This document shows positions 4,009 to 36,233 of a stretch of DNA of 38,059 bases, piece after piece. The stretch comes from Nitrospirota bacterium (GTDB lineage Bacteria > Nitrospirota > Nitrospiria > Nitrospirales > Nitrospiraceae). The notes beneath the pieces are model-generated. The model was given only the letters and a program-made list of their open reading frames with translations. It did not search any database and was not told where the DNA came from. The translations under genes and the position numbers were made by a program. Position 1 is the first letter of the stretch. Every line of letters begins with the position of its first letter. Location: NCBI GenBank assembly GCA_005887945.1, contig VBOL01000018.1, positions 1-38,059 on the forward strand. The letters run 5' to 3'.

Positions 4009-4046
4009 TTGACAGCCCTTACCATGGTATGTAACATTTTGTGACA
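4009..4046 (+). promoter_or_regulatory. Promoter and palindromic operator of the PolB cassette, probably leaderless
   Basis: TTGACA at 4009-4014 is followed by 17 bases and TAACAT at 4032-4037, a good sigma70-type promoter. The predicted transcription start (about 4044-4046) coincides with the ATG at 4046, and no Shine-Dalgarno is present, so the mRNA is probably leaderless. Two symmetric sequences cover the spacer and -10 region: the perfect palindrome TACCATGGTA (4020-4029), and TGTAACATTTTGTGACA (4030-4046), in which TGTNACA occurs twice. They are natural candidates for the operator of the HTH-S24 repressor encoded immediately downstream (autoregulation, inferred). Confidence 0.65.
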
Positions 4047-4591
4047 TGACGGCCAAACAGTTCAGGCAGGCGCGGGTTCGGTTGGGGTACACGCAGGCGA
4101 AGTTGGCGGAGGTGCTGCAACTGAGCCGGATGACGATCAGCCGCTATGAGGCCGGCAGGTGGGAGGTTCCTTTGTCGGTCGAGATGGCGCTGGACCAGTT
4201 GGGGTCGTCACAGATTCCTATGTTGGGGATGGTGGCGGCCGGGGCGCCGATCGAACCGATTACGCAAGCTGAATTGGTGGCGGTGCTGCCGCCGTTGTTG
4301 CGCAGGGGAGAGACCTTCGCGCTACGGGTGAAAGGCGAGTCGATGAAGGACGACGGCATTTTCCCCGGCGATTTGGTGGTGGTGCGGAAGCAGGGTACCG
4401 CGCGGAATGGGCAGACGGTGGTGGCCTTAGTCAACAATGAAGCTACGATCAAGAAGTACTACCGCAAGGACGGTCGGATTGAACTGCATCCGGCGAATGC
4501 AGCGATGAAGCCGATCATCGTGTCGTCACAGGACGAGTTTTGTATTCAGGGAATTGTCGCGGGGGTGATTCGCCACTTCAACGAATCGTGA
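4046..4591 (+). CDS. HTH-S24 self-cleaving repressor (LexA/CI-like)
   Basis: This 181-residue protein has an XRE-type helix-turn-helix at about residues 5-40 (YTQAKLAEVLQLSRMTISRYE) joined to a LexA/CI S24 peptidase domain. Cleavage would occur at Ala65-Gly66 in GMVAAGAPIE. The catalytic serine is Ser99 (KGESMKDDGI) and the lysine Lys136 (NEATIKKYY), so all three elements of RecA-stimulated autoproteolysis are present. The winged helix of canonical LexA is absent, so this is not the housekeeping LexA but a CI-like repressor. It is the first gene of a four-gene cassette ending in a B-family polymerase, with only 8 bases to the next gene. By analogy with LexA it should repress its own promoter and release it on DNA damage; the regulation is inferred, the domain assignment is firm. 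Confidence 0.93.
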   Translation: MTAKQFRQARVRLGYTQAKLAEVLQLSRMTISRYEAGRWEVPLSVEMALDQLGSSQIPMLGMVAAGAPIEPITQAELVAVLPPLLRRGETFALRVKGESMKDDGIFPGDLVVVRKQGTARNGQTVVALVNNEATIKKYYRKDGRIELHPANAAMKPIIVSSQDEFCIQGIVAGVIRHFNES

Positions 4592-4599
4592 GGTGTTCT

Positions 4600-5310
4600 A
4601 TGGCTCTGGTGCAGCAACAGGCGATTGAGTTTTTGTTTCGCACAGAAGATGGCGGCGCGGTCATCGATGCGCCTCGCCATCTGCTGGCGGCGTTACGGCA
4701 GAGTGCGGTGTCGACCGATCAGCCGAAGGGGTTGGTGCTATTGTCCGGACCGCCGTCGGTCTATCGACTGGGCCTCTGTGCCGCGGTCGATCGCGCGTTG
4801 GCCGGCGAACCGGTGCTGTATCTGGCCGGCGCCAATGTCTTCGACCCATTCTTGGTGGGGCGGCTGGCTCGGGCAAGTCGGGTGGCGTCAGCTCAGGTGC
4901 TGCAACAGATTCACGTCTCACGGGCCTTCACCTGTCATCAGATGGTCCGGTTGGTCACGGATTGTCTCCTGTCGGCGTTGCGCACCTATGATGCGCGATT
5001 CGTCATTCTCGCCGGTCCGCTCGACACGTTGTACGATCAGTCGGTGCCGGAGCCTGAAGCGATGCGCCTCTTTCGTACCATGACAGAGGCCCTGCAGGAC
5101 ATGGCCTACCAGGGTGTGCAGGTGCTGTGCGTGAGCCCGCTCGCGCCGCCTGAATCCGGCGGACGCAGCCGATTTATGGCGGCACTCCGTGCGCAGGCGC
5201 GCCGGGCGATCGATGTGTGCGAGGCCGAGGACGGACTGTGGCTCCATGAAGAGGGAGGGCCTGAGCCCAAACGCTGGATGATTCCGCGTCCGCTCTGGAA
5301 TCGGTTGTAA
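4600..5310 (+). CDS. RecA-fold protein with degenerate Walker motifs, PolB-cassette accessory (ImuA-like role proposed)
   Basis: I chose ATG 4600 (GAGGTG five bases upstream, just after the repressor stop) over the longer ORF start at 4540, giving 236 residues. The fold pattern is RecA/Rad51/KaiC-like: strand GLVLLSG (44-50), helix, strand PVLYLAGAN (71-79), a conserved-looking VSRAFTCHQMVRLV (106-119), strand DARFVILAGPLDTLYD (131-146), strand VQVLCVSPL. The P-loop position reads GPPSVYRL instead of GxxxxGKT, and the Walker B Asp is missing (FVILAG), so ATP hydrolysis is unlikely. This recalls ImuA, a RecA-like accessory of the DnaE2 mutasome. It ends 2 bases before the next gene. A role in recruiting the polymerase to RecA filaments or the clamp is a proposal. 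Confidence 0.75.
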   Translation: MALVQQQAIEFLFRTEDGGAVIDAPRHLLAALRQSAVSTDQPKGLVLLSGPPSVYRLGLCAAVDRALAGEPVLYLAGANVFDPFLVGRLARASRVASAQVLQQIHVSRAFTCHQMVRLVTDCLLSALRTYDARFVILAGPLDTLYDQSVPEPEAMRLFRTMTEALQDMAYQGVQVLCVSPLAPPESGGRSRFMAALRAQARRAIDVCEAEDGLWLHEEGGPEPKRWMIPRPLWNRL

Positions 5311-5312
5311 GC

Positions 5313-5603
5313 ATGGGGCGCACGCTTGCCACGTTCACGCAATTGGTCCAGCAGGAAATCGATTCGTGGAGCCGCTACCGGCGTGCATTGCGGCGTGAGG
5401 ATCAGCAGGCGCTCGATGTGTTGTTCGCCGCCGCCCGCCACCATGCGTCCGCCGGCGCCTATCTTGCGCGTGAGACACCGTTCGAAGTGATGCTGCTGTC
5501 CATGTTAATCGAACAACAGAAACACGTCGTCACGTTGCAACAGAAAGTGATGACTCTTGAAACCCGCATGCACCACGACTCGACTCAAGGGATGGCTTCT
5601 TGA
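5313..5603 (+). CDS. Small helical PolB-cassette protein, 96 aa
   Basis: The start ATG 5313 lies 2 bases after the RecA-like stop, and the 3' end overlaps polB by 47 bases, so expression is probably coupled. The sequence is all helical: TFTQLVQQEIDSWSRYRRAL, REDQQALDVLFAAARHHASA, then PFEVMLLSMLIEQQKHVVTL and a coiled-coil-like tail (QQKVMTLETRM). I recall similar MGRT...FRRALRREDR...PFEAMLLSMLLE proteins in archaea and other bacteria as uncharacterised. If they sit beside PolB genes there too, it is a dedicated polymerase partner. No enzymatic motif is visible. Real gene by position and composition; function unknown. Confidence 0.75.
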   Translation: MGRTLATFTQLVQQEIDSWSRYRRALRREDQQALDVLFAAARHHASAGAYLARETPFEVMLLSMLIEQQKHVVTLQQKVMTLETRMHHDSTQGMAS

Positions 5604-7800
5604 TGTCTACCCGGCACAAGAGGGCATGGTCGTCTGGCTCGTCGGCGAGGACGGTCGCCGCATCAGAGCCATCGATCCCTTTGTGCCGACGTGCTATCTG
5701 GCGGCTCCGCCGTCCATCCGCGAGCACGTGTTCAGGTTACTCCGCCGTGCCTCCTGTCGTATCAGCACCAGAGAGGTAGAGCGATATGAACTTGGCGCGC
5801 CTTGTCCGATCTCGGTGCTGGAAGTTTCGGTTCACGCTCCCGCGCAGTTCTCGTCCCTCACGCAACATCTGATCCGCGCCTGTCCCGACGCGCAGTTCTT
5901 TCACGTGGATGTGTCCCTGCCGCAGCGCTACTTCTACGACCGGGAACTCTTCCCTCTGGTCCATTGCGAGGCTGACCTTACAGCCGAAGGCCGGATTCAG
6001 TCGATTCAGGCGCTGGAGTCGCCCTGGGACACGGACTATGGTTTCCCACCGCTCACGATCATGGAGCTGTCGCCGGACAGTCCGTCGCCCAACCCGAATC
6101 ATGGCGGGCATGGCTCGTTCGTGGTGCGGATGGATGGGGAGGAGCGTCTGTTGGAAGGCGATGATGCTGACGTAATCCAGCGCCTCAACCAGCTGCTCGT
6201 GCGACAGGACCCCGATATTCTATTAACGGACTGGGGCGATTCCTATCTTCTGCCGCGTCTCATGATCATGGCGGATCAGCTGCGCATGCCGCTCGAGCTC
6301 AATCGCGATCCCCATCGATCCATCGGCACCAGGAAACCCCGTTCGTATTTTTCATACGGCCGTATCCTGTCCCATGCTGGTGCCCGTATTCTGTCGGGAC
6401 GGTTGCATCTCGATCGGCACAATTCCTTTGCGCTGGCGGAAACGGGCCTGGCCGGTCTCATCGAGCAGGCCCGTATCGCGAAGGTCGATTTGCAGCAGAT
6501 GGCCCGCACGACGACAGGGACGGGGATCACCTCAATGCAGCTCGAAACGGCTTGTCGCGACGGTCTGTTGATTCCCTATCGGAAACAGGAGCCGGAAGCC
6601 TTCAAATCCGCGCGCGAGTTGCTGCAGACCGATCAGGGCGGATTGGTATTTGCGCCGATCGTCGGCTATCACGAGCAGGTCGGTGAGCTGGATTTCTCTT
6701 CTATGTATCCCTCCATCATGGTGCGCTTCAACATCTCGCCCGAAACGATCAATTGCCCGTGCTGCCGCGATGAGCCGGCCGCACGGGTGCCGGAGATCGG
6801 CCATCACACCTGCCGCCATCGCCAGGGATTGGTGCCTCGCACGCTGGCCCCGTTGCTCGACAAGCGCGTGCGGTACAAACGGCTCATGGCCGCGGCGACA
6901 CAGCCGGCGGCGAGGGCCGTGCTCGATCAACGGCAAACGGCGCTCAAGTGGCTGCTCGTCGTCTCGTTCGGTTATTTGGGGTACAAGAATGCCCGGTTCG
7001 GCCGGATCGAAGCACACGAATCCGTGACCGCCTACAGCCGTGATCTGCTGCTGCAGGCCAAGGAGGTTGCCGAGCGGCAGGGCTATCGCATGCTGCATGC
7101 GATTGTGGATTCGCTCTGGTTCGTCAAACCCGGCGCAGTCAGGGCAGACTACAACAGACTTGCGCAGGAGATCACCGAGCGGACGGGGCTCTCGATCGGC
7201 CTGGAAGGGCTCTATCACTGGATTGGGTTTCTTCCGTCACGGGTCAATCCGCTCATGCCGGTGCCGAATCAGTTCGTGGGCCTGTTTGACCATGGAGCCA
7301 TGAAAATCCGCGGCATCGAAATCCGTCGCAGCGATGCGCCGTTTCTCGTCAAACGGGCACAGGCGGAGGTGCTGCGCTGTCTGAGTCAGGCACGGATGCT
7401 GGCCGAGTTGCGTGAACAGATTCCTCAGGCATTGGAGATTGTCCGTATCTATCGGCGCTATCTCCACGATGGTCACGCCACCGTTGAGGAACTGGCCATT
7501 ACCAAATCCCTCTCGAAAGAGCCGCAGGCCTATCGCCATCAGACCTTGTCGATGATTGCGGCGCAGGAACTGCTCGCGCGCGGCGTGTCGCTCCAAGCCG
7601 GCGACACGATTCACTACATCATTACGGATGCCGACGCGGCTTATCTGCCAGACCGGGCGCGTGCGGTGGCCGGACTCGATGGGACCTGGAGCTACGATGT
7701 CTCGGCCTATGACAGCCTGCTTTTGAAGGCGGCCCTCGTGCTGTTGACGCCCTTGGGCGTGACGGCGACCTCGTTGAACGAATCTACTGCAGGATGCTAA
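5557..7800 (+). CDS. B-family DNA polymerase with degenerate exonuclease and Pol-epsilon-like Cys cluster
   Basis: The start must be TTG 5557 or later, because the frame closes at TGA 5551. The 747-residue product has an N-terminal and exonuclease-like region (about 1-330) and a polymerase domain (about 340-700). Motif A is LDFSSMYPSIM (Asp379). Motif B is KWLLVVSFGYLG (from Lys464), with Val for the usual Asn of NSxYG. Motif C is AIVDSLW (Asp518): the first Asp of DTD is lost but the metal-binding second Asp remains. The exonuclease motifs are degenerate: DxE reads TIMELS, the second motif WGDSYLLP lacks FD, and no YxxxD is seen, so proofreading is probably absent. Between motifs A and B lies NCPCC...HTC (Cys400, 402, 403, 419), where Pol epsilon carries its metal-binding Cys motif. 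Operon context points to damage-inducible synthesis. The last codons and stop lie in repeat copy A. Confidence 0.92.
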   Translation: MKPACTTTRLKGWLLDVYPAQEGMVVWLVGEDGRRIRAIDPFVPTCYLAAPPSIREHVFRLLRRASCRISTREVERYELGAPCPISVLEVSVHAPAQFSSLTQHLIRACPDAQFFHVDVSLPQRYFYDRELFPLVHCEADLTAEGRIQSIQALESPWDTDYGFPPLTIMELSPDSPSPNPNHGGHGSFVVRMDGEERLLEGDDADVIQRLNQLLVRQDPDILLTDWGDSYLLPRLMIMADQLRMPLELNRDPHRSIGTRKPRSYFSYGRILSHAGARILSGRLHLDRHNSFALAETGLAGLIEQARIAKVDLQQMARTTTGTGITSMQLETACRDGLLIPYRKQEPEAFKSARELLQTDQGGLVFAPIVGYHEQVGELDFSSMYPSIMVRFNISPETINCPCCRDEPAARVPEIGHHTCRHRQGLVPRTLAPLLDKRVRYKRLMAAATQPAARAVLDQRQTALKWLLVVSFGYLGYKNARFGRIEAHESVTAYSRDLLLQAKEVAERQGYRMLHAIVDSLWFVKPGAVRADYNRLAQEITERTGLSIGLEGLYHWIGFLPSRVNPLMPVPNQFVGLFDHGAMKIRGIEIRRSDAPFLVKRAQAEVLRCLSQARMLAELREQIPQALEIVRIYRRYLHDGHATVEELAITKSLSKEPQAYRHQTLSMIAAQELLARGVSLQAGDTIHYIITDADAAYLPDRARAVAGLDGTWSYDVSAYDSLLLKAALVLLTPLGVTATSLNESTAGC

Positions 7801-14288: not shown

Positions 14289-14723
14289 ATGCAGAATGTT
14301 AAAAGTTACATGATCCGTTGTCTGGTCGGAGGGTTGCTGGGCTCTGCTACGGTCATCCAGGCGGCTGCGGCCGGTCAGCCGGCTGCCTACACCCAGGAGC
14401 ATCCGATCACCATCGACGCTACCGCCATTAATCCTCAGTCCTGGTGGCAAGTGTCCGGCATCACCCCATCCATCTATGCCTCGGACCCCGAGTCCATGGA
14501 TGCCTACAAGACGACCGAGTCCCGTGCCCTCAAACTGAAGCCCGGCAAATATAAATTTGGGAGCTTCACGTTTGATTTTCCGTTCACGGTGAACTTAGAG
14601 GGGAAGTTGGAGTTTCCCCAGTCGCTCGACCAATGTGTAGAGGGACGAGGGACCCAGACCTTAACCATCCGCTGCAGCCGGACCTATCCGCATGGCGGCC
14701 AGCGCGATTACCAGTATCAGTAG
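14289..14723 (+). CDS. Small exported protein, 144 aa, unknown
   Basis: ATG 14289 lies 8 bases after the phosphodiesterase-like gene; ATG 14310 (MIRCLVGG) is an alternative start. A signal peptide is clear (CLVGGLLGSATVIQAAAAGQPA). The mature part reads EHPITIDATAINPQSWWQVSGITPSIYASDPES...LKLKPGKYKFGSFTFDFPFTVNLEGKLEFPQSLDQCVEGRGTQTLTIRC, a beta-rich pattern with two cysteines that could form a disulphide. I recognise no family. Position suggests cotranscription with the upstream gene and possibly the HEAT-repeat gene 13 bases downstream. Confidence 0.6.
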   Translation: MQNVKSYMIRCLVGGLLGSATVIQAAAAGQPAAYTQEHPITIDATAINPQSWWQVSGITPSIYASDPESMDAYKTTESRALKLKPGKYKFGSFTFDFPFTVNLEGKLEFPQSLDQCVEGRGTQTLTIRCSRTYPHGGQRDYQYQ

Positions 14724-14736
14724 AGGAGCGGTACCA

Positions 14737-16101
14737 ATGGCCCAGGCGCTTGATGATCTGTTAGAAGCACTCGAGGATGTCGACGACGCGACCCGCGAGG
14801 AGGCGTCCAAGGCACTCGCCGAACTCGCCGATCCCACCACGTTGGACGCGCTTGTCGGTGCCTGTGCGGACGAATATTGGACTGTGCGGGCCCATGCGGG
14901 CTGGGGCGTGGCCAGGATCGGCGGGGCTAAAGCGGTGGAAGCGCTCATCGTCCTGTTTAATGATTCCATCATGAATGTGCGGAACGATGCCGTGGCGGCC
15001 ATGGCCTCGATGGGAGCCGCAGTCGTTGATCGCCAGATCACCGCACTGAAGGATGAGCGGTGGCGTGTCCGGGAACATGCGGCGAAAACTTGTGGTGAAA
15101 TAAAGGATCGGAGCGCCGTGGCGGCCCTCATGCTCGTCTGTCGAGATCGTGATGGTGCCGTGAAAAGTGCGGCGGCAGAGGCACTGGGCAAGATCGGCGA
15201 TCCGAGGGCGATCCCAGTCCTGGTCAAGCTCTTCCGTGATCCTTCGAAAACGGTGCGAGAAACAGCCGGAACCGCACTTGTTTCTATCGGCCAGCCCTCC
15301 GTCGATCCGCTGATTGAGTGTCTGAAGGATAAAGATTTTGTGGTCCGGTGCCACGCTGCCCGCGCACTTGGTGGGATGACCACCGACTATCAAATCGGCC
15401 GAACTTGGGTGCGTGACGCAAAAGTTGTCGACGGCTTGATTGCCGCGCTGAAAGATCCGGATCGGGCCGTCCGCGAGGATGCCACGATCGCCCTGGGCCA
15501 GATTGGAGATCCACGGGCCATCGATGCCTTGATCGAGGCGATGAAAGATGGCGTGGTGAAGCGGCATGCCATAGCGTCGCTCGGCATGATCGGCGATCCT
15601 CGCGCCTTGCCTCCGGTGCTGGACGCGTTGAAGGGCAAGGGCATTCGACAGGATGGGACCCCGACCCCCGGCTGTATCGTCAGCGAAGACGCCTTTATCA
15701 AGGAAGCGGCGGCGACGGCGCTCGGCGAGTTCCGTGATCCGCGCGTCATTCCCGACTTGATCATGCTGTTGAAGGACGGCGTCCTACGCGAAAAGGCCGG
15801 TGCCGCCCTGGCCACCATCGGTGATACGGCGATCGAGCCTTTGATTGCCTTTCTCTATGACCCGAAAGCGTCCGAAGTCGTCGCAGAAGGGGAGCGGGTG
15901 CTCTCCTATGCGTCGGTCCGACTTACGGCGAAAGATGCCTTGCGACAATTGGCGCTTGAAACACTCGAAAAGTTGGGGTGGATGCCGGCGCCGGAAGACG
16001 TCACCGTCAATTCGAGTGTGGTCGACAATGCCAGGGTGGACATGCCTCTTGGCGACACAGGCCGATTTGGCCCTTCGGGAGATTTCGCCCAACGGGGCTA
16101 G
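14737..16101 (+). CDS. HEAT-repeat protein 1, 454 aa
   Basis: ATG 14737 follows AGAGGAGCG. The protein is nearly all HEAT (PBS-lyase-like) repeats of about 31 residues with the signature VRxxAAxALGxIGDPRAVxPLIxALKD, for example VKSAAAEALGKIGDPRAIPVLVKLFRD and VREDATIALGQIGDPRAIDALIEAMKD. Two insertions break the array (MTTDYQIGRTWVRDAK and KGIRQDGTPTPGCIVSED). The last 40 residues are non-repeat. Such solenoids bind proteins or cofactors. No catalytic residues and no signal peptide are seen, so it is probably a cytoplasmic scaffold or chaperone. It heads a run of five HEAT genes. Relation to phycobilin lyases is only through the repeat fold. Confidence 0.85.
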   Translation: MAQALDDLLEALEDVDDATREEASKALAELADPTTLDALVGACADEYWTVRAHAGWGVARIGGAKAVEALIVLFNDSIMNVRNDAVAAMASMGAAVVDRQITALKDERWRVREHAAKTCGEIKDRSAVAALMLVCRDRDGAVKSAAAEALGKIGDPRAIPVLVKLFRDPSKTVRETAGTALVSIGQPSVDPLIECLKDKDFVVRCHAARALGGMTTDYQIGRTWVRDAKVVDGLIAALKDPDRAVREDATIALGQIGDPRAIDALIEAMKDGVVKRHAIASLGMIGDPRALPPVLDALKGKGIRQDGTPTPGCIVSEDAFIKEAAATALGEFRDPRVIPDLIMLLKDGVLREKAGAALATIGDTAIEPLIAFLYDPKASEVVAEGERVLSYASVRLTAKDALRQLALETLEKLGWMPAPEDVTVNSSVVDNARVDMPLGDTGRFGPSGDFAQRG

Positions 16102-16312
16102 CAGGCTGCGGAAAAACTATTTTGTCAGGCTAGAGCTTCGATGGTCTGTACATGTGGCACAACAGGAGAACACTCCTGCAGGATAGCTGAGCGAGACTGG
16201 CGGGATGGGCGAGACGAGGTAGAAATCCTATCTGTCCACGTCGGGCCTTTCTCGCATGTCTCGCGCTTCCAGCGCCACGGCCTGTGGCGCTGGCGGACTT
16301 TTTCAGCATCTA
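16101..16312. repeat. Inverted-end intergenic element, copy D
   Basis: The left end GCAGGCTGCGGAAAAAC starts at the last base of the HEAT-1 stop codon. The right end GACTTTTTCAGCATC (16296-16310) is the inverted consensus end. The centre differs from copies A-C and includes GCGCCACGGCCTGTGGCGC, itself a palindrome. Members of the family thus share ends but not cores. It separates HEAT genes 1 and 2 and could terminate transcription between them. Confidence 0.6.
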
Positions 16313-16331
16313 GTTGGGATTGAGGTTAGGC

Positions 16332-17414
16332 ATGGCTGACGCGGTAGCCGAACAGATTGCTGCGCTCAAAGACGAGGATTGGGCGATTCGCGAAGAGGCC
16401 GCCACCATGCTTGGCACGCTTCGAGATCCGAGGGCTGTGGCGCCGTTGGTCTCCGTGCTTCGTGACGGCGATCGCGCGGTTCGCGATGCGGCTATCGGCG
16501 CCCTCCTGGCCATCGGAGAGCCGGCTGTGACAACGCTGGGCGTCTGCCTTTCCGATCCGGTGCTCACGGTTCAGGAATTGGCCTCGTCTGTGTTGGCGAC
16601 CATTGCCGATGCGCGGGTGCTCGCGCCGCTCGTCAAGGCGCTCGCGAGCCCCGATTGGATTGTGCGGATGCATGCGGCCAAGGCGCTGGGTCGGATTCAA
16701 GATCCTGAAGCGGTGGCGCCGTTGGTGCCGCTGCTACAGGATAAGGTGAAAGCCGTACGTGAGGAGACGTCGACAGCCCTCGCGGCCATTGGGGAGGCGG
16801 CGTTGCCATCGCTGCTCGCTGCGCTGACCAATGCTGAATGGCTGGTACGGTTGCATGCGGTAGAAGCTTTAGGGAAAACAAGATCGCTGGAGGCTGTGGA
16901 CCCGCTCTTGTCGGTACTCTTCAACGATCGGGACAGGGCGGTTCGCGAGGATGCAGTCCGCGCACTCGGTCAGATTGGAGATGCGCGCGCCGTGGAGTGC
17001 CTCGTGACAGCAATGAAAGAGCCGGGGCTGCGGCCGCTGGCGGTAGAGGCACTGGGCCGGATCGGCGATCGTCGTGCGGTGCCGGTGCTGATCAACGTAC
17101 TTGAGGGAGTGGACCGACCGGAGGTCTCACGGCCGATCGATGGCTGTGGCGATCGTTGGGATGAAGAAATACTGACATTGGGGGCTGCCGTCAGAGCGTT
17201 GGGCGCGATCCGAGACGAGGCGGCCATACCTTCGCTCATGAAGGCGCTCCGCCACACGGTGGCGCGAGCGGAAGCCGCCGACGCTCTGACTCGATTCGGT
17301 TCCGCTGTGATCGCGCCATTGCTGGCCGTGCTGGCACGCGAGTCGGATGACAACATCCGTTACCATGTCAAAGACACGTTGGCCAAGGTCGGCTGGCGGT
17401 CGGGTCGCATCTAG
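16332..17414 (+). CDS. HEAT-repeat protein 2, 360 aa
   Basis: ATG 16332 (MADAVAEQIAALKDEDWAIR) is preferred over the track TTG 16314, which overlaps the end of repeat copy D. The array of about 11 HEAT repeats covers almost the whole protein (IREEAATMLGTLRDPRAVAPLVSVL, VRMHAAKALGRIQDPEAVAPLVPLL, VREDAVRALGQIGDARAVECLV). One insertion, VDRPEVSRPIDGCGDRWDEE, sits near residue 265. It ends with VKDTLAKVGWRSGRI, echoing the LEKLGWMP and LASLGWNAMP ends of its paralogues, so the family shares a terminal GW motif. Soluble; function unknown. Confidence 0.85.
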   Translation: MADAVAEQIAALKDEDWAIREEAATMLGTLRDPRAVAPLVSVLRDGDRAVRDAAIGALLAIGEPAVTTLGVCLSDPVLTVQELASSVLATIADARVLAPLVKALASPDWIVRMHAAKALGRIQDPEAVAPLVPLLQDKVKAVREETSTALAAIGEAALPSLLAALTNAEWLVRLHAVEALGKTRSLEAVDPLLSVLFNDRDRAVREDAVRALGQIGDARAVECLVTAMKEPGLRPLAVEALGRIGDRRAVPVLINVLEGVDRPEVSRPIDGCGDRWDEEILTLGAAVRALGAIRDEAAIPSLMKALRHTVARAEAADALTRFGSAVIAPLLAVLARESDDNIRYHVKDTLAKVGWRSGRI

Positions 17415-17427
17415 TGATGCCAGTGCT

Positions 17428-17490
17428 CAATTTTGAATGTTAAATTTTGAATTTATAACTCAGCACACAGGACATAGGACTTAGCACTCA
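17428..17490. repeat. AT-rich degenerate tandem repeat
   Basis: AATTTTGAATGTTA is followed by AATTTTGAATTTATAA, then by degenerate seven- to nine-base units (CTCAGCA, CACAGGA, CATAGGAC, TTAGCACT). The block fills most of the gap between HEAT genes 2 and 3 and stands out for its AT content. It has no coding potential. It may carry the promoter of HEAT gene 3, though no clear -35/-10 pair was assigned. Confidence 0.4.
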
Positions 17491-17512
17491 TTGCGTGCCA
17501 GGTCGTAGCGCC

Positions 17513-18613
17513 ATGCCCAAAGAAACGATTGAAACGCTGGTTTCTGATCTCGTCCACGAAGAGGACTGGCGACGGATGCGGGCGACAGCAGCCTGCCTGT
17601 CAGGCGGGCCCCGCGCAGTCCAGGCGCTGGTGCAGGCGTTGGAGACTGGCTCGCCAGCGTTAAAAGCCGAGGCCGCGGCCATGCTGGCGCGCGTGAACGA
17701 TCCTCAGGCCGGCGTGCCGCTGGTCGGCTTACTCCGCGATGAGGATGAGGCTGTCCGCAAGGCCGGCGCGTCAGCCTTGGAACACATGGCGGGGGTGCTT
17801 GACGAGACGACTGCAGCGGCGCTGGCCTCGCTGCTCTATGCCTCGAAGGACGAAGGGATTCGCCTGACGGCCTCGCAGTTGTTGGGAGTCATTCCGAATG
17901 CGATCGCGCCACTCTGCGAGATGTTGACCCATCAGGACCCAGAGGCACAGATCATGGCCGCGAAAATGCTGGAACATCTGCTCGATCCCCGTTCAGCGGA
18001 CGCGTTCATCAATGCGATGGGGCAGCCAGCCGTTCGCGATATTGCCGTGCGGACGCTCAAGAAGTTGAGCGCGATTCGTGAACGCATCGACGAGGTTTTT
18101 GACGCGCTTCGCGCGATTGAGGAGTTGAGCGAACGGGAAGAGGCTCGCATGAGCACCGTGATTAATCTTTTAGCCATCGGGCGTCCGAGCGTGGAGATTT
18201 TGATCGAGTATCTGGAAGATGACGATTGGCTGGTCCGTGAAGCCGCCGCCGACTTGCTGGGGAAGATCGGCGATGTCCGCTCGGTCGAGCCCTTGATGCA
18301 GCGGCTGCGGGTCGATAAAGATACGGGCGTGAAGGAACTGGCGATGAAATCATTGGGTTTGATCGGCGATGCCAGGCCTGCCCAACTCTATATCGAGGCC
18401 ATTCCCATTCGGCCCCTGCGGGTCCATGCCATGGAAGCCTTGGCCAAAGTGAAAGATGTGGATGTGTTGCGGCCGTATAAGGAGCTGTTCGATCGGTTGA
18501 GGACGGACCGAGACGGCCTGGTCGCGTATAATTCCGGGTTGATCGCCGACAAACTGGAAGCGCTCGACGGGACGCCTGTCGGGAGTCAGGGAGGGCAGGA
18601 CGACGATGAGTGA
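17513..18613 (+). CDS. HEAT-repeat protein 3, 366 aa
   Basis: ATG 17513 (MPKETIETLVSDLVHEEDWRR) is chosen; GTG 17495 is possible. HEAT repeats cover the protein, but they are more diverged than in its neighbours. The middle has a non-repeat helical insert (LKKLSAIRERIDEVFDALRAIEELSEREEARM). Well-formed repeats return afterwards (VREAAADLLGKIGDVRSVEPLMQRL). The C-terminus is acidic (GGQDDDE). The 3' end overlaps HEAT gene 4 by 8 bases, a translational coupling arrangement that implies the two products are made together and may form a complex. Confidence 0.85.
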   Translation: MPKETIETLVSDLVHEEDWRRMRATAACLSGGPRAVQALVQALETGSPALKAEAAAMLARVNDPQAGVPLVGLLRDEDEAVRKAGASALEHMAGVLDETTAAALASLLYASKDEGIRLTASQLLGVIPNAIAPLCEMLTHQDPEAQIMAAKMLEHLLDPRSADAFINAMGQPAVRDIAVRTLKKLSAIRERIDEVFDALRAIEELSEREEARMSTVINLLAIGRPSVEILIEYLEDDDWLVREAAADLLGKIGDVRSVEPLMQRLRVDKDTGVKELAMKSLGLIGDARPAQLYIEAIPIRPLRVHAMEALAKVKDVDVLRPYKELFDRLRTDRDGLVAYNSGLIADKLEALDGTPVGSQGGQDDDE

Positions 18614-19370
18614 CGATGTGCGGACTGAACGGATCGAACAATTGATCGGGGCCCTTCGGGACGACAATGAAGCGCTCCGCGATCATGCGATTGCCAGTTT
18701 GAGTCAAGTGGGCGAGGACGCGGTGGGACCGCTGATCGGGCTCATGGCGGACGAAGATGTGCTGATTCGGGAAGCGGCGACCAGCGCCATCGTGCGGATC
18801 GGTCCATCCGTCGTCGATCCGTTGATCGAGGCGTTGGAGGACGATGAATGGGCGATTCGCGAGCAGGCGGCGTCGGGATTGGGGAAGCTGAAGGACCCTC
18901 GAGGAGTCGATCCCCTCGTGAAGGCGCTCAAGGACAAAGATGGCGCGGTGCGGACCGCCGCCGTGTGGGCGCTTGAGCGTGTCGGCGATGCGCGCGCGGT
19001 GCCTGGGTTGGTCGAGGCGCTGACCGATAATACGGTACGTGAGGACGTGGCGCGTGTGCTGAAAAAGATCGGCGATGCGCGAGCCGTGGACGCTTTGATC
19101 GACGGGCTGCTTGGCAATAATTGGATGGTACGGCGCCATGCGGCCGAAGCCTTGGGCAAGATCGGCGATGCCCGCGGAGTGGACCCGTTGATCGAATCGC
19201 TCAAGGATGAAGACTGGCTCGTGCGGCGGAATGCCGCCGAATCGCTCGCGCGGCTCGGGGCGAAGCAGGCCATCGCCCCCTTACTTCCGCTGCTTGAAGA
19301 TGAGCATACGATGGTGCAGGAAACGGTAGAGGGTGTGTTGGCGAGTCTCGGATGGAACGCGATGCCATAA
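18606..19370 (+). CDS. HEAT-repeat protein 4, 254 aa
   Basis: ATG 18606 overlaps the preceding stop, with a GGCAGGACGACG leader. This is the most regular of the five, with about eight near-consensus repeats (IREQAASGLGKLKDPRGVDPLVKALKDKDGAVRTAAVWALERVGDARAVPGLVEAL). The C-terminal ETVEGVLASLGWNAMP carries the family GW ending. There is no signal peptide, membrane helix or enzymatic motif. Consensus-like repeats suggest recent repeat amplification or strong fold constraint. Binding partner unknown. Confidence 0.87.
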   Translation: MSDDVRTERIEQLIGALRDDNEALRDHAIASLSQVGEDAVGPLIGLMADEDVLIREAATSAIVRIGPSVVDPLIEALEDDEWAIREQAASGLGKLKDPRGVDPLVKALKDKDGAVRTAAVWALERVGDARAVPGLVEALTDNTVREDVARVLKKIGDARAVDALIDGLLGNNWMVRRHAAEALGKIGDARGVDPLIESLKDEDWLVRRNAAESLARLGAKQAIAPLLPLLEDEHTMVQETVEGVLASLGWNAMP

Positions 19371-19399
19371 TTTTTATTTCGACATAAAGGATATACATC

Positions 19400-20110
19400 A
19401 TGGCGGATGAAGCTCCTCCAAAGCTTATTCAGATCGGTCCGAAGGGCGGCGCGAAGAAGGACGGATTCAATCTCGTCACAGAACGAGTCGTCGCGATAAA
19501 CCCTGAGGCGAAACAGCTTGAAGTCGAACTGTTAGCCTACGACGGTAAGACGGTCGTGCTGGACGTTGATGACAAGGCGCTTGAAGAGCTGAAGCAGCTC
19601 AAGGTAGGGGACGGCGCCACCATCCGCGTCGTCGAAGAAGGCGGGCGACGGATCGCTAAAAGCTTTCGGATTCGTGCAAAGGATCCCAATGCGGCGCGAG
19701 CCGACGCGATGCTCTTGGATCTCAAGGATAGCCATTGGCTCAATCGAAAGTATGCGGCTGAAGTGCTGGGTGAGCTGAAAGAAGTTCGCGCCGTGCGGCC
19801 GTTGGTCGATGCGTTGGCGGATGAAGTCGGCGACGTCCGGCAGCGCGCCTATGATTCATTGATCAAGATCGGCGGGCCGGCGGTGTCATCACTCGTGCCT
19901 TTGCTGGTCTCGGAAGAAGATGAGATCAGACAATCCGTGACGGAAATCATCCGTAAAATCGGGAAGCCTGCCGTCGAGCCGTTGGCCACGGCGCTCGCCG
20001 AGGCCGACGACCGTCTGAAGACGCGGGTGATGAAGGTGTTGGACCGGATGGGCTACAAGCCGAAAGTCCATGATGAGGCCAAGGCCGTCGAGGCGCCGCG
20101 ACTCACGTAA
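19400..20110 (+). CDS. HEAT-repeat protein 5 with N-terminal beta-rich domain, 236 aa
   Basis: ATG 19400 follows AAAGGATATACATC. Residues about 5-95 are not HEAT repeats but look like a small beta-barrel (FNLVTERVVAINPEAKQLEVELLAYDGKTVVLDVDDKALEELKQLKVGDGATIRVVEEGGRR). Four HEAT repeats follow (WLNRKYAAEVLGELKEVRAVRPLVDALAD). This architecture differs from the other four, so the domain may add the effector or ligand-binding role of the group. The gene ends 8 bases from the convergent UDP-glucose dehydrogenase gene, with no room for a standard terminator. Confidence 0.83.
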   Translation: MADEAPPKLIQIGPKGGAKKDGFNLVTERVVAINPEAKQLEVELLAYDGKTVVLDVDDKALEELKQLKVGDGATIRVVEEGGRRIAKSFRIRAKDPNAARADAMLLDLKDSHWLNRKYAAEVLGELKEVRAVRPLVDALADEVGDVRQRAYDSLIKIGGPAVSSLVPLLVSEEDEIRQSVTEIIRKIGKPAVEPLATALAEADDRLKTRVMKVLDRMGYKPKVHDEAKAVEAPRLT

Positions 20111-34191: not shown

Positions 34192-35034
34192 ATGGTACAC
34201 ACAGTTGAGATAGAGGTTGCTGGGCGCACCCTGCGACTCGAAACCGGTCGCGTGGCACGACAAGCAGACGGCTCGATTTGGGCCTCGTACGGCGATACCG
34301 TCGTGCTGGCGACGGTCGTCGCGTCACAGGTCGCCAAGGCGGGCATCGATTTTCTTCCCCTCACGGTCGATTATCAGGAAAAATCCTTCGCAGCCGGGAA
34401 GATTCCCGGCGGGTATTTTAAGCGGGAAGCGCGTCCATCGGAAAAGGCTGTGCTGACCAGTCGGCAGATCGATCGGGGGCTCCGTCCGCTCTTTCCTGAG
34501 GGCTATTACTTCGAAACCCAGGTCATCGCCTCAGTCCTCTCGGCCGATCAGACGGGCTCGTCCGACATCCTCGCCATTATCGCCTCCTCTGCTGCCCTCA
34601 CCATCTCGAATATTCCGTTCGACAATCCTATCGCAGGTGTGAGGATCGGTCGGCTGGACGGCAAGTTCATCGTCAACCCGGACCTTGAGACAGTGGCGAA
34701 GAGCGAGCTGCAACTCGTTGTGGCGGGGACGGCTGATGCGGTCATGATGGTCGAAGCAGGGGCGAATGAACTGTCCGAAGCCATCATGCTTGAGGCGATC
34801 GAACTCGCCCATGCCGAGATCAAGAAGATTGTGGCCAAGATTCGCGAGTTGCAAGCCGCCGCAGGCAAGCCCAAGCGGAAGGTGGCGAAGGAGCAGATCG
34901 ATTCTGCGCTCGCCGCTCAAGTGAAGGCTCTGGTGGCGCAAGGGATCCGCGAGGCCATCATGATTCCGAACAAAGCGGCCAGGCAGGAGCGGTTGGATGA
35001 AGTCAAGGACGGCGTACGGAAGTTCGGAACATGA
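34192..35034 (+). CDS. pnp: Polyribonucleotide nucleotidyltransferase, N-terminal part (split gene)
   Basis: This ORF holds the first RNase PH domain of PNPase ([82 protein letters not shown]) and the all-helical linker ([31 protein letters not shown]). It ends KDGVRKFGT at TGA 35032. The expected continuation [17 protein letters not shown] is present in the next frame, starting just before the stop. Compared with the B. subtilis protein, about 25 linker residues are missing at the junction near 35012, plus a frameshift. The stop overlaps the ATG of the second part (ATGA), so coupled translation of two polypeptides is possible. Confidence 0.9.
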
Positions 35035-36233
35035 TCCTGGAGAAAGGGTCGCGGGCGGATGGACGTGGCCCGGCTGATATTCGTCCGATCACTTGCGAAG
35101 TCAGCGCGCTGCCACGGACACACGGCTCCGCGATCTTCACCAGGGGCGAGACTCAAAGTTTGGCCGTGGTCACGTTGGGGACCACGGACGACGAGCAGCG
35201 AATCGATGCGTTGGAAGGGGAGTACATGAGGACATTCATGCTCCATTACAATTTTCCGCCGTTCAGCGTCGGCGAGGCGCGGCCGCTTCGCTCACCGGGA
35301 CGCCGGGAAGTCGGTCATGGTACATTGGCGGAACGGGCGTTGGCCCCGGTGGTTCCCAGTAAGGAGGCGTTTCCCTACACGCTCCGCATCGTGTCCGACA
35401 TCCTCGAATCCAACGGATCCTCTTCGATGGCGACTGTCTGTGGTGGGAGCCTTGCCATGATGGACGCCGGCGTGCCGATCAGAGAAGCCGTTGCCGGGAT
35501 CGCGATGGGATTGATCAAGGAAGGTGATCGGGTCATGATCCTCTCGGATATCCTCGGGCTGGAGGATCACTTGGGTGACATGGATTTTAAGGTCTGCGGC
35601 ACCAAGCAGGGCGTGACGGCGTTGCAGATGGATATCAAGATCGGCGGCATTACGTCGGCCTTGATGCAGAAGGCCTTGGAACAGGCCAAAGCCGGGCGCT
35701 TACATATTTTGAGTTGTATGGATGAGGCGCTCCAAGCGCCTAGAACCACCCTGTCGGCCTACGCGCCACGGATCTTCACGATGAAGGTGAAGCAGGACAA
35801 GATCCGTGAGATCATCGGTCCGGGCGGCAAAACGATCCGCGCCATTATTGCGGATTGCGGGGTCAAGATCAATGTCGACGACAGCGGAACTGTCACGATC
35901 GCGTCGGTTGACGGAGCCTCGGCCGAGAAGGCCAAAGAAATGATCAGTCGGATTACCGAAGAAGTCGAGATCGGGAAGATCTACATGGGTACGGTTCGGA
36001 AGATCATGGACTTCGGCGCGTTTGTCGAGGTCCTGCCGGGAACCGATGGATTGGTGCACATCTCGCAGCTGGCGCACCATCGAGTCCAAACGGTATCCGA
36101 CGAGGTGAAGGAAGGCGATCAAATCCTGGTGAAGGTCCTGGAAGTGGATCGGCAAGGAAAGATCCGCCTTAGCCGCAAGGAAGCCATGCCGCCTCCGACC
36201 GGGGCCGGTGTGCTTGATCCGTCCGCCAGGTAG
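35031..36233 (+). CDS. pnp: Polyribonucleotide nucleotidyltransferase, C-terminal part (split gene)
   Basis: This 400-residue ORF contains the second, catalytic RNase PH domain ([114 protein letters not shown]). A KH domain ([22 protein letters not shown]) and an S1 domain ([33 protein letters not shown]) follow. All catalytic-site residues I can judge are present. Before its ATG the same frame reads TEVRN, which belongs to the ancestral fused protein. A split PNPase could still assemble if both parts are made; a frameshift error in the sequence is the main alternative. Confidence 0.92.

Follow-up and report, generated by a model that had tools for sequence, protein, structure and literature searches.

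Background

The closest described relatives of the polymerase reported here are the PolB2 (G2 group) enzymes. Makarova 2014 found PolB2 encoded together with lexA, an inactivated radA and arCOG07300 in Leptospirillum (PMC4104785), and Kazlauskas 2020 delimited a bacterial group, G2, within archaeal B2 (PMC7544198). Timinskas 2025 named the partner genes iRadA and PPB2, described the MGRT motif, gave the bacterial gene order as iRadA-PPB2-PolB2, and described a single transfer of PolB2 from archaea to bacteria (PMC11791011). Rogozin 2008 (PMC2527604) belongs to the same literature. S. islandicus Dpo2 is the PolB2 that has been studied; it shows activity but no proofreading, and can extend ends that are mismatched or paired with a lesion (PMC8764526).

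Eukaryotic Pol epsilon carries a metal site, CysX, in its catalytic domain that is treated as unique to this enzyme (PMC3986358, PMC9581978, PMC7544198). Jain 2014 reported that conservation of the Pol epsilon cysteines does not extend to other B-family polymerases, and described a P-domain made of residues 533-555 and 682-760, the latter between C677 and C763 (PMC3986358). According to Kazlauskas 2020, no metal-binding domains had previously been detected in archaeal PolBs, and that paper adds C-terminal ones only (PMC7544198). In the searchable literature we found no metal measurement on any PolB2, and in literature outside subscription papers no zinc or cysteine description of the PolB2 loop. 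The four-cysteine loop is absent from the portions of PMC2527604, PMC4104785, PMC7544198 and PMC11791011 that were searched. The polymerase family and its operon are already known; the four-ligand palm site appears to be undescribed in the searchable literature.

The window, meaning the whole stretch of 38,059 nucleotides that was analysed, contains a polB2 gene. An earlier sequence-only reading of it had pointed to a Pol epsilon-like cysteine cluster between motifs A and B of the gene product. From comparison of sequences, we consider it probable that this polB2, part of a LexA-controlled mutasome operon, encodes a polymerase with a four-ligand structural metal site (C400/C402/C403/C419), most likely for Zn2+.

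Results

The gene order in the window, lexA-iRadA-PPB2-polB2 (4046-7800), is that of the published PolB2 operon. Its features are as follows.

4009-4037, + strand: promoter, with -35 TTGACA (4009-4014), 17-bp spacer and -10 TAACAT (4032-4037), kept in relatives L031-L035, L038 and L047
4030-4046, + strand: LexA-type operator TGTAACATTTTGTGACA, a near-palindrome over the -10 and the lexA start codon, from sequence comparison with relatives
4046-4591, + strand: XRE-type LexA repressor with S24 self-cleavage domain (Peptidase_S24, 5.4e-30; TIGR00498 lexA, 1.1e-36)
4600-5310, + strand: iRadA, a degenerate RadA/Rad51-like protein with no evident Walker A motif (weak radA/Rad51 match)
5313-5603, + strand: PPB2, a 96-aa partner protein with the N-terminus MGRT, as in PMC11791011
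5557-7800, + strand: PolB2 (G2 group) DNA polymerase, 747 aa, TTG start assumed

Among 80 fetched loci, homologues of PPB2 lie near polB2 in 66, of iRadA in 60 and of lexA in 31, with many of the remaining loci ending at contig borders. The sequence-only reading had taken the polymerase to be damage-inducible, and its gene does belong to a lexA operon, which carries a LexA-type operator. Perfect palindromes occupy the same operator place in relatives L035 and L047, and the window's operator is the only exact consensus match in the genome. Because this operator stands at the lexA start and is kept in relatives, damage induction of the polB2 operon is likely. The lexA transcript is probably leaderless, given that no more than 8 nt separate the -10 from its ATG. 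The genome also holds a second XRE-type LexA paralogue (L259:4836-5381, contig C310), which stands alone with no PolB2 operon beside it and has its own one-mismatch site, TGTAACCATCGGTTACA, at the gene start.

Other genes of the window were recorded as well. The gene for DNA polymerase I (polA, 12-2372, its 5' end cut by the window) closely precedes the PolB2 operon and shares its strand. Five genes in a row (14692-20110) all encode HEAT-repeat proteins of the PBS lyase type. PNPase (34192-36233) is present as two overlapping frames, 34192-35034 and 35031-36233, which reflect either an assembly frameshift or a real split gene.

The polymerase matches DNA_pol_B (PF00136) at 8.9e-40, and its best NCBIfam matches are archaeal-type PolB models, with NF004416 at 2.9e-118, under that model's cut-off. 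In a tree built without the loop columns, PolB2 forms a clade (SH-aLRT 95) separate from PolB1 and PolB3, and the bacterial PolB2 sequences, including that of the window, form one clade (SH-aLRT 99). By sequence, the enzyme is a PolB2/G2 polymerase, an archaeal translesion type transferred to bacteria, in its published operon. The PolB2 profile scores 271 bits against Thermococcales PolB, 143 against Pol alpha, 103 against Pol delta, 83 against E. coli Pol II and 59 against Pol epsilon. Descent from Pol epsilon is ruled out by these scores together with the fit to PolB2. The "Pol epsilon-like" label of the sequence-only reading therefore survives for the position of the site and fails for descent, the enzyme being an archaeal-type PolB2.

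The host genome measures 3.5 Mb, and Nitrospira and Nitrospirae bins are the nearest named relatives by the polB2 gene. Distribution is patchy: PolB2 is absent from 7/7 other sampled genomes of the same genus, and 45/198 phylum genomes match at E 0.001, some of these via other PolB. Such a pattern points to frequent loss or transfer. With no PolB2 in the seven other genomes, conservation was judged across genera. The features of the polymerase that bear on the site are listed below.

6688-6714, + strand: motif A, LDFSSMYPS, residues 378-386, with Asp379 retained
6754-6765, + strand: CPCC, with Cys400 (6754-6756), Cys402 (6760-6762) and Cys403 (6763-6765), first part of the proposed metal site
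6811-6819, + strand: Cys419 (6811-6813), which pairs with Pol epsilon C763, and His421, an alternative ligand position, from alignments and HMM columns
6943-6981, + strand: motif B, LKWLLVVSFGYLG, with the usual Asn and Tyr replaced
7096-7119, + strand: motif C, HAIVDSLW, residues 514-521, with the first Asp of DxD replaced and the second, Asp518, and His514 retained

LDFSSMYPS, ETINCPCC, HTCRHRQG and HAIVDSLW all stand in the translation exactly as had been read. The supposed likeness of motif C to the DTDGIW of Pol epsilon proved superficial: the actual motif is IVD-S-LW, the first Asp is absent, and the likeness lies in the tail only. Loss of that first Asp is shared by most PolB2, and 30/30 phylum homologues lack it while having the second Asp and the conserved His. 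Exonuclease motif I is not conserved, with FPPLTIMELS where DIE would be expected, and this position is variable among homologues. At the D(K/R) motif position before motif A, Asp359 is invariant, but the next residue is Gln (DQ) in the window.

Directly after motif A, the four cysteines form the pattern CxCC-x15-C (C400, C402, C403, C419). The sequence-only reading had named a lack of conservation in close homologues as a refutation, and this did not occur: all four are invariant in 30/30 homologues from the phylum, the only ones to be so among the protein's 13 cysteines. Eight of the nine others are poorly conserved in the phylum set. The exception is Cys137 (FPLVHCEA, window 5965-5967), found in 27/28 Nitrospirota PolB2 and replaced by G/A/V in many PolB2 elsewhere; a role for it as a fifth ligand is ruled out, as many PolB2 with such a replacement retain all four cysteines.

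Beyond the phylum, in a comparison made without Asgard and methanogen PolB, the four-cysteine motif also occurs in Armatimonadota, NC10, Ignavibacteria/Bacteroidota, Deltaproteobacteria, Rokubacteria, Bathyarchaeota, and many further archaeal PolB2. Bathyarchaeia PolB2 loci have CxCC..C. Those on haloarchaeal plasmids read CxC[CH]..C, and in three of the four such PolB2 examined a His replaces C403 (CxCH). Apart from PolB2, the active PolB1 polymerases of Bathyarchaeia (L113-L116) carry CxHxxC..C at the place of the cluster, where just two cysteines are present in 1s5j, the structure of S. solfataricus PolB1.

The ligands vary as a set. By HMM column, the 168 distinct loops compared, from bacterial and archaeal PolB2, have four possible Cys/His ligands in 121 cases, two in 16, zero or one in 31, and three in none (L042, with its third Cys shifted by one to CxCxC, was set to four by hand). 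If the columns were independent, about 42 loops with exactly three ligands would be expected in a tree-thinned set of 100 (minimum 27 in 5000 shuffles), and none was observed; kinship makes this shuffle test generous, and the tree agrees with its outcome. C400 alone is lost in six loops, all of which (6/6) have His or Cys at position 421, as against 5/114 among loops with C400. The Fisher P value of this swap, 1.3e-7, is inflated by kinship, the six loops representing only one or two branches or evolutionary events.

The Cys-free Chloroflexota sequences form one clade (SH-aLRT 100), whose sister clade carries the C400-to-H421 swap. The loop is often shorter in the Cys-free clade, which retains iRadA and PPB2 beside polB2. 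The two-Cys sequences likewise form one clade (SH-aLRT 100), a Thermoproteota branch. Thermophily is a conceivable cause of its reduction to two cysteines, as composition proxies are high there (IVYWREL mean 0.494), yet several four-Cys archaeal PolB2 are equally high. Judged from these alignments, all-or-none occurrence and swaps are the behaviour of a metal site.

Located between motifs A and B, the cluster coincides in position with CysX. An hhalign comparison of the PolB2 profile with the yeast Pol2 segment, whose cysteines (C665, C668, C677, C763) were checked against PDB chains, begins exactly at C419 = C763 (E 2.1e-8), and continues ungapped with R437, Y440 and K441 on R781, F784 and K785. 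In the MAFFT alignment, the inserted P-domain of Pol epsilon interrupts the loop that runs from CPCC to C419. PolB2 has no such insertion, with 15 residues between C403 and C419 as against 94 between Pol epsilon C668 and C763. The pairing of C665/C668 with the CPCC group is made by MAFFT only and is weaker than C419 = C763, and C677 has no counterpart. As the overall score is far from Pol epsilon (59 bits), the likeness, as read from sequence, is local to the site and not a sign of close kinship.

Discussion

The sequences show the family, the operon, the conservation and co-variation of the cysteines and their positional match; metal binding and metal identity, the mechanical role, a common origin with CysX and the translesion function of this particular protein are inferences. 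It is hypothesized that this PolB2 acts in translesion synthesis as an extender polymerase whose proofreading has been lost and whose partners are iRadA and PPB2. We infer that C400, C402, C403 and C419 would together hold one structural metal ion, most likely Zn2+. The site would fasten the palm loop that follows motif A to the beginning of the stretch running on to the fingers, and it would not be catalytic. Since the Cys-free clade still has iRadA and PPB2, the site is probably structural rather than required for the complex. The two-Cys pair of other archaeal polymerases of the family and the CysX of Pol epsilon also lie in this loop; these arrangements are probably variants of a single palm staple. 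Such a staple could exist in three chemistries: a four-ligand metal, a two-Cys disulfide, and none in the Cys-free clade.

Zinc sites typically allow exchange of Cys and His, which is seldom seen in [4Fe-4S] clusters. Zinc is favoured over Fe-S on account of three such exchanges: CxCH in haloarchaea, CxHxxC..C in Bathyarchaeia PolB1, and H421 for C400. Of the Fe-S or zinc site suggested by the sequence-only reading, the conserved four-ligand set is borne out, and the Fe-S part is disfavoured by the same swaps. Two observations speak against a metal site. Adjacent ligands such as C402 and C403 are unusual, and the Thermoproteota branch has two cysteines only, while those of S. islandicus Dpo2 have been read as disulfides (PMC7390963), so that the pair can work without a metal.

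A [4Fe-4S] cluster as in Pol epsilon, which would make PolB2 a redox-sensitive translesion polymerase, is possible, less likely than zinc, and on the whole unlikely. The shared loop and the alignment of C419 with C763 would fit it. CysX itself binds [4Fe-4S] (PMC9581978; PMC3986358), and Zn was modelled at CysX in Pol epsilon crystals, meaning that one metal can be mistaken for the other (PMC3986358). However, the ligand sets differ (CxCC..C versus CxxC-x8-C..C), PolB2 lacks the P-domain, and a His at C403 or in the PolB1 motif is common for Zn and rare for [4Fe-4S].

One or two disulfides, with C403-C419 bonded as proposed for hyperthermophile PolB, would account for the Thermoproteota branch, which has exactly this pair. 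C403 and C419 align with the two palm cysteines of Thermococcales PolB, for which a disulfide was proposed (PMC6051491), and disulfides were also proposed for the cysteines of S. islandicus Dpo2 (PMC7390963). We nevertheless hold this explanation to be quite improbable for the window protein: the bacterial cytosol is reducing, four ligands occur in 121/168 loops with His accepted and three-ligand loops at zero, and the 400-to-421 swap would be left unexplained. Conservation of the cysteines for contact with DNA, PPB2 or iRadA, with no metal, is suggested by the modelled complex of PolB2 with PPB2 and iRadA (PMC11791011) and is very unlikely, as the Cys-free Chloroflexota clade retains both partners and such contacts would require neither loss of the whole set at once nor Cys/His exchange.

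A structural zinc site is thus the reading we prefer. Sequence evidence gives strong support to the four-ligand palm site, whose position matches that of CysX. A palm metal site common to PolB2 and Pol epsilon is a testable new idea, given that papers call CysX unique to Pol epsilon. Were the four-ligand site of this probably damage-inducible prokaryotic polymerase homologous to CysX, the Pol epsilon site would gain an evolutionary history, and there would be a hint at the route by which the P-domain entered. Smaller enzymes, with natural Cys-free relatives as controls, would also become available for testing what the site does. The site would matter for purification of PolB2 too: incorrect metal loading or thiol oxidation could partly explain the low activity reported for some preparations.

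Comparison with known systems

Published PolB2/G2 polymerases (PMC2527604, PMC4104785, PMC7544198 and PMC11791011) resemble that of the window in a motif C that retains the second Asp but not the first, along with a conserved His, in decayed exonuclease motifs, in the iRadA-PPB2-polB2 order with lexA, in the MGRT of PPB2, and in a bacterial clade adjoining archaeal PolB2. They differ in the D(K/R) motif, which is DQ in the window.

Thermococcales PolB (KOD, Tgo, Pfu) gives the best PDB profile matches and has cysteines at the C403 and C419 positions. Unlike PolB2, it has only two cysteines at this place, an active DxD and an exonuclease.

The Pol epsilon core with CysX (yeast Pol2 C665, C668, C677, C763) has a set of four cysteines in the corresponding loop, likewise between motifs A and B, and the CxxC spacing of PolB2 C400/C403 resembles that of C665/C668. 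In contrast to Pol epsilon, PolB2 has no P-domain (Pol2 682-760) inside the loop, has an adjacent Cys pair, and lacks a counterpart of C677. Its motif C is IVDS without DxD rather than DTDG, it has no C-terminal half (ending at 747 aa), and its sequence is distant. We tentatively raise the possibility that CysX is not unique, and that an ancestral palm metal site, seen in archaeal and bacterial PolB2 and some PolB1, might have received the P-domain between its ligands and changed from zinc to [4Fe-4S] in Pol epsilon.
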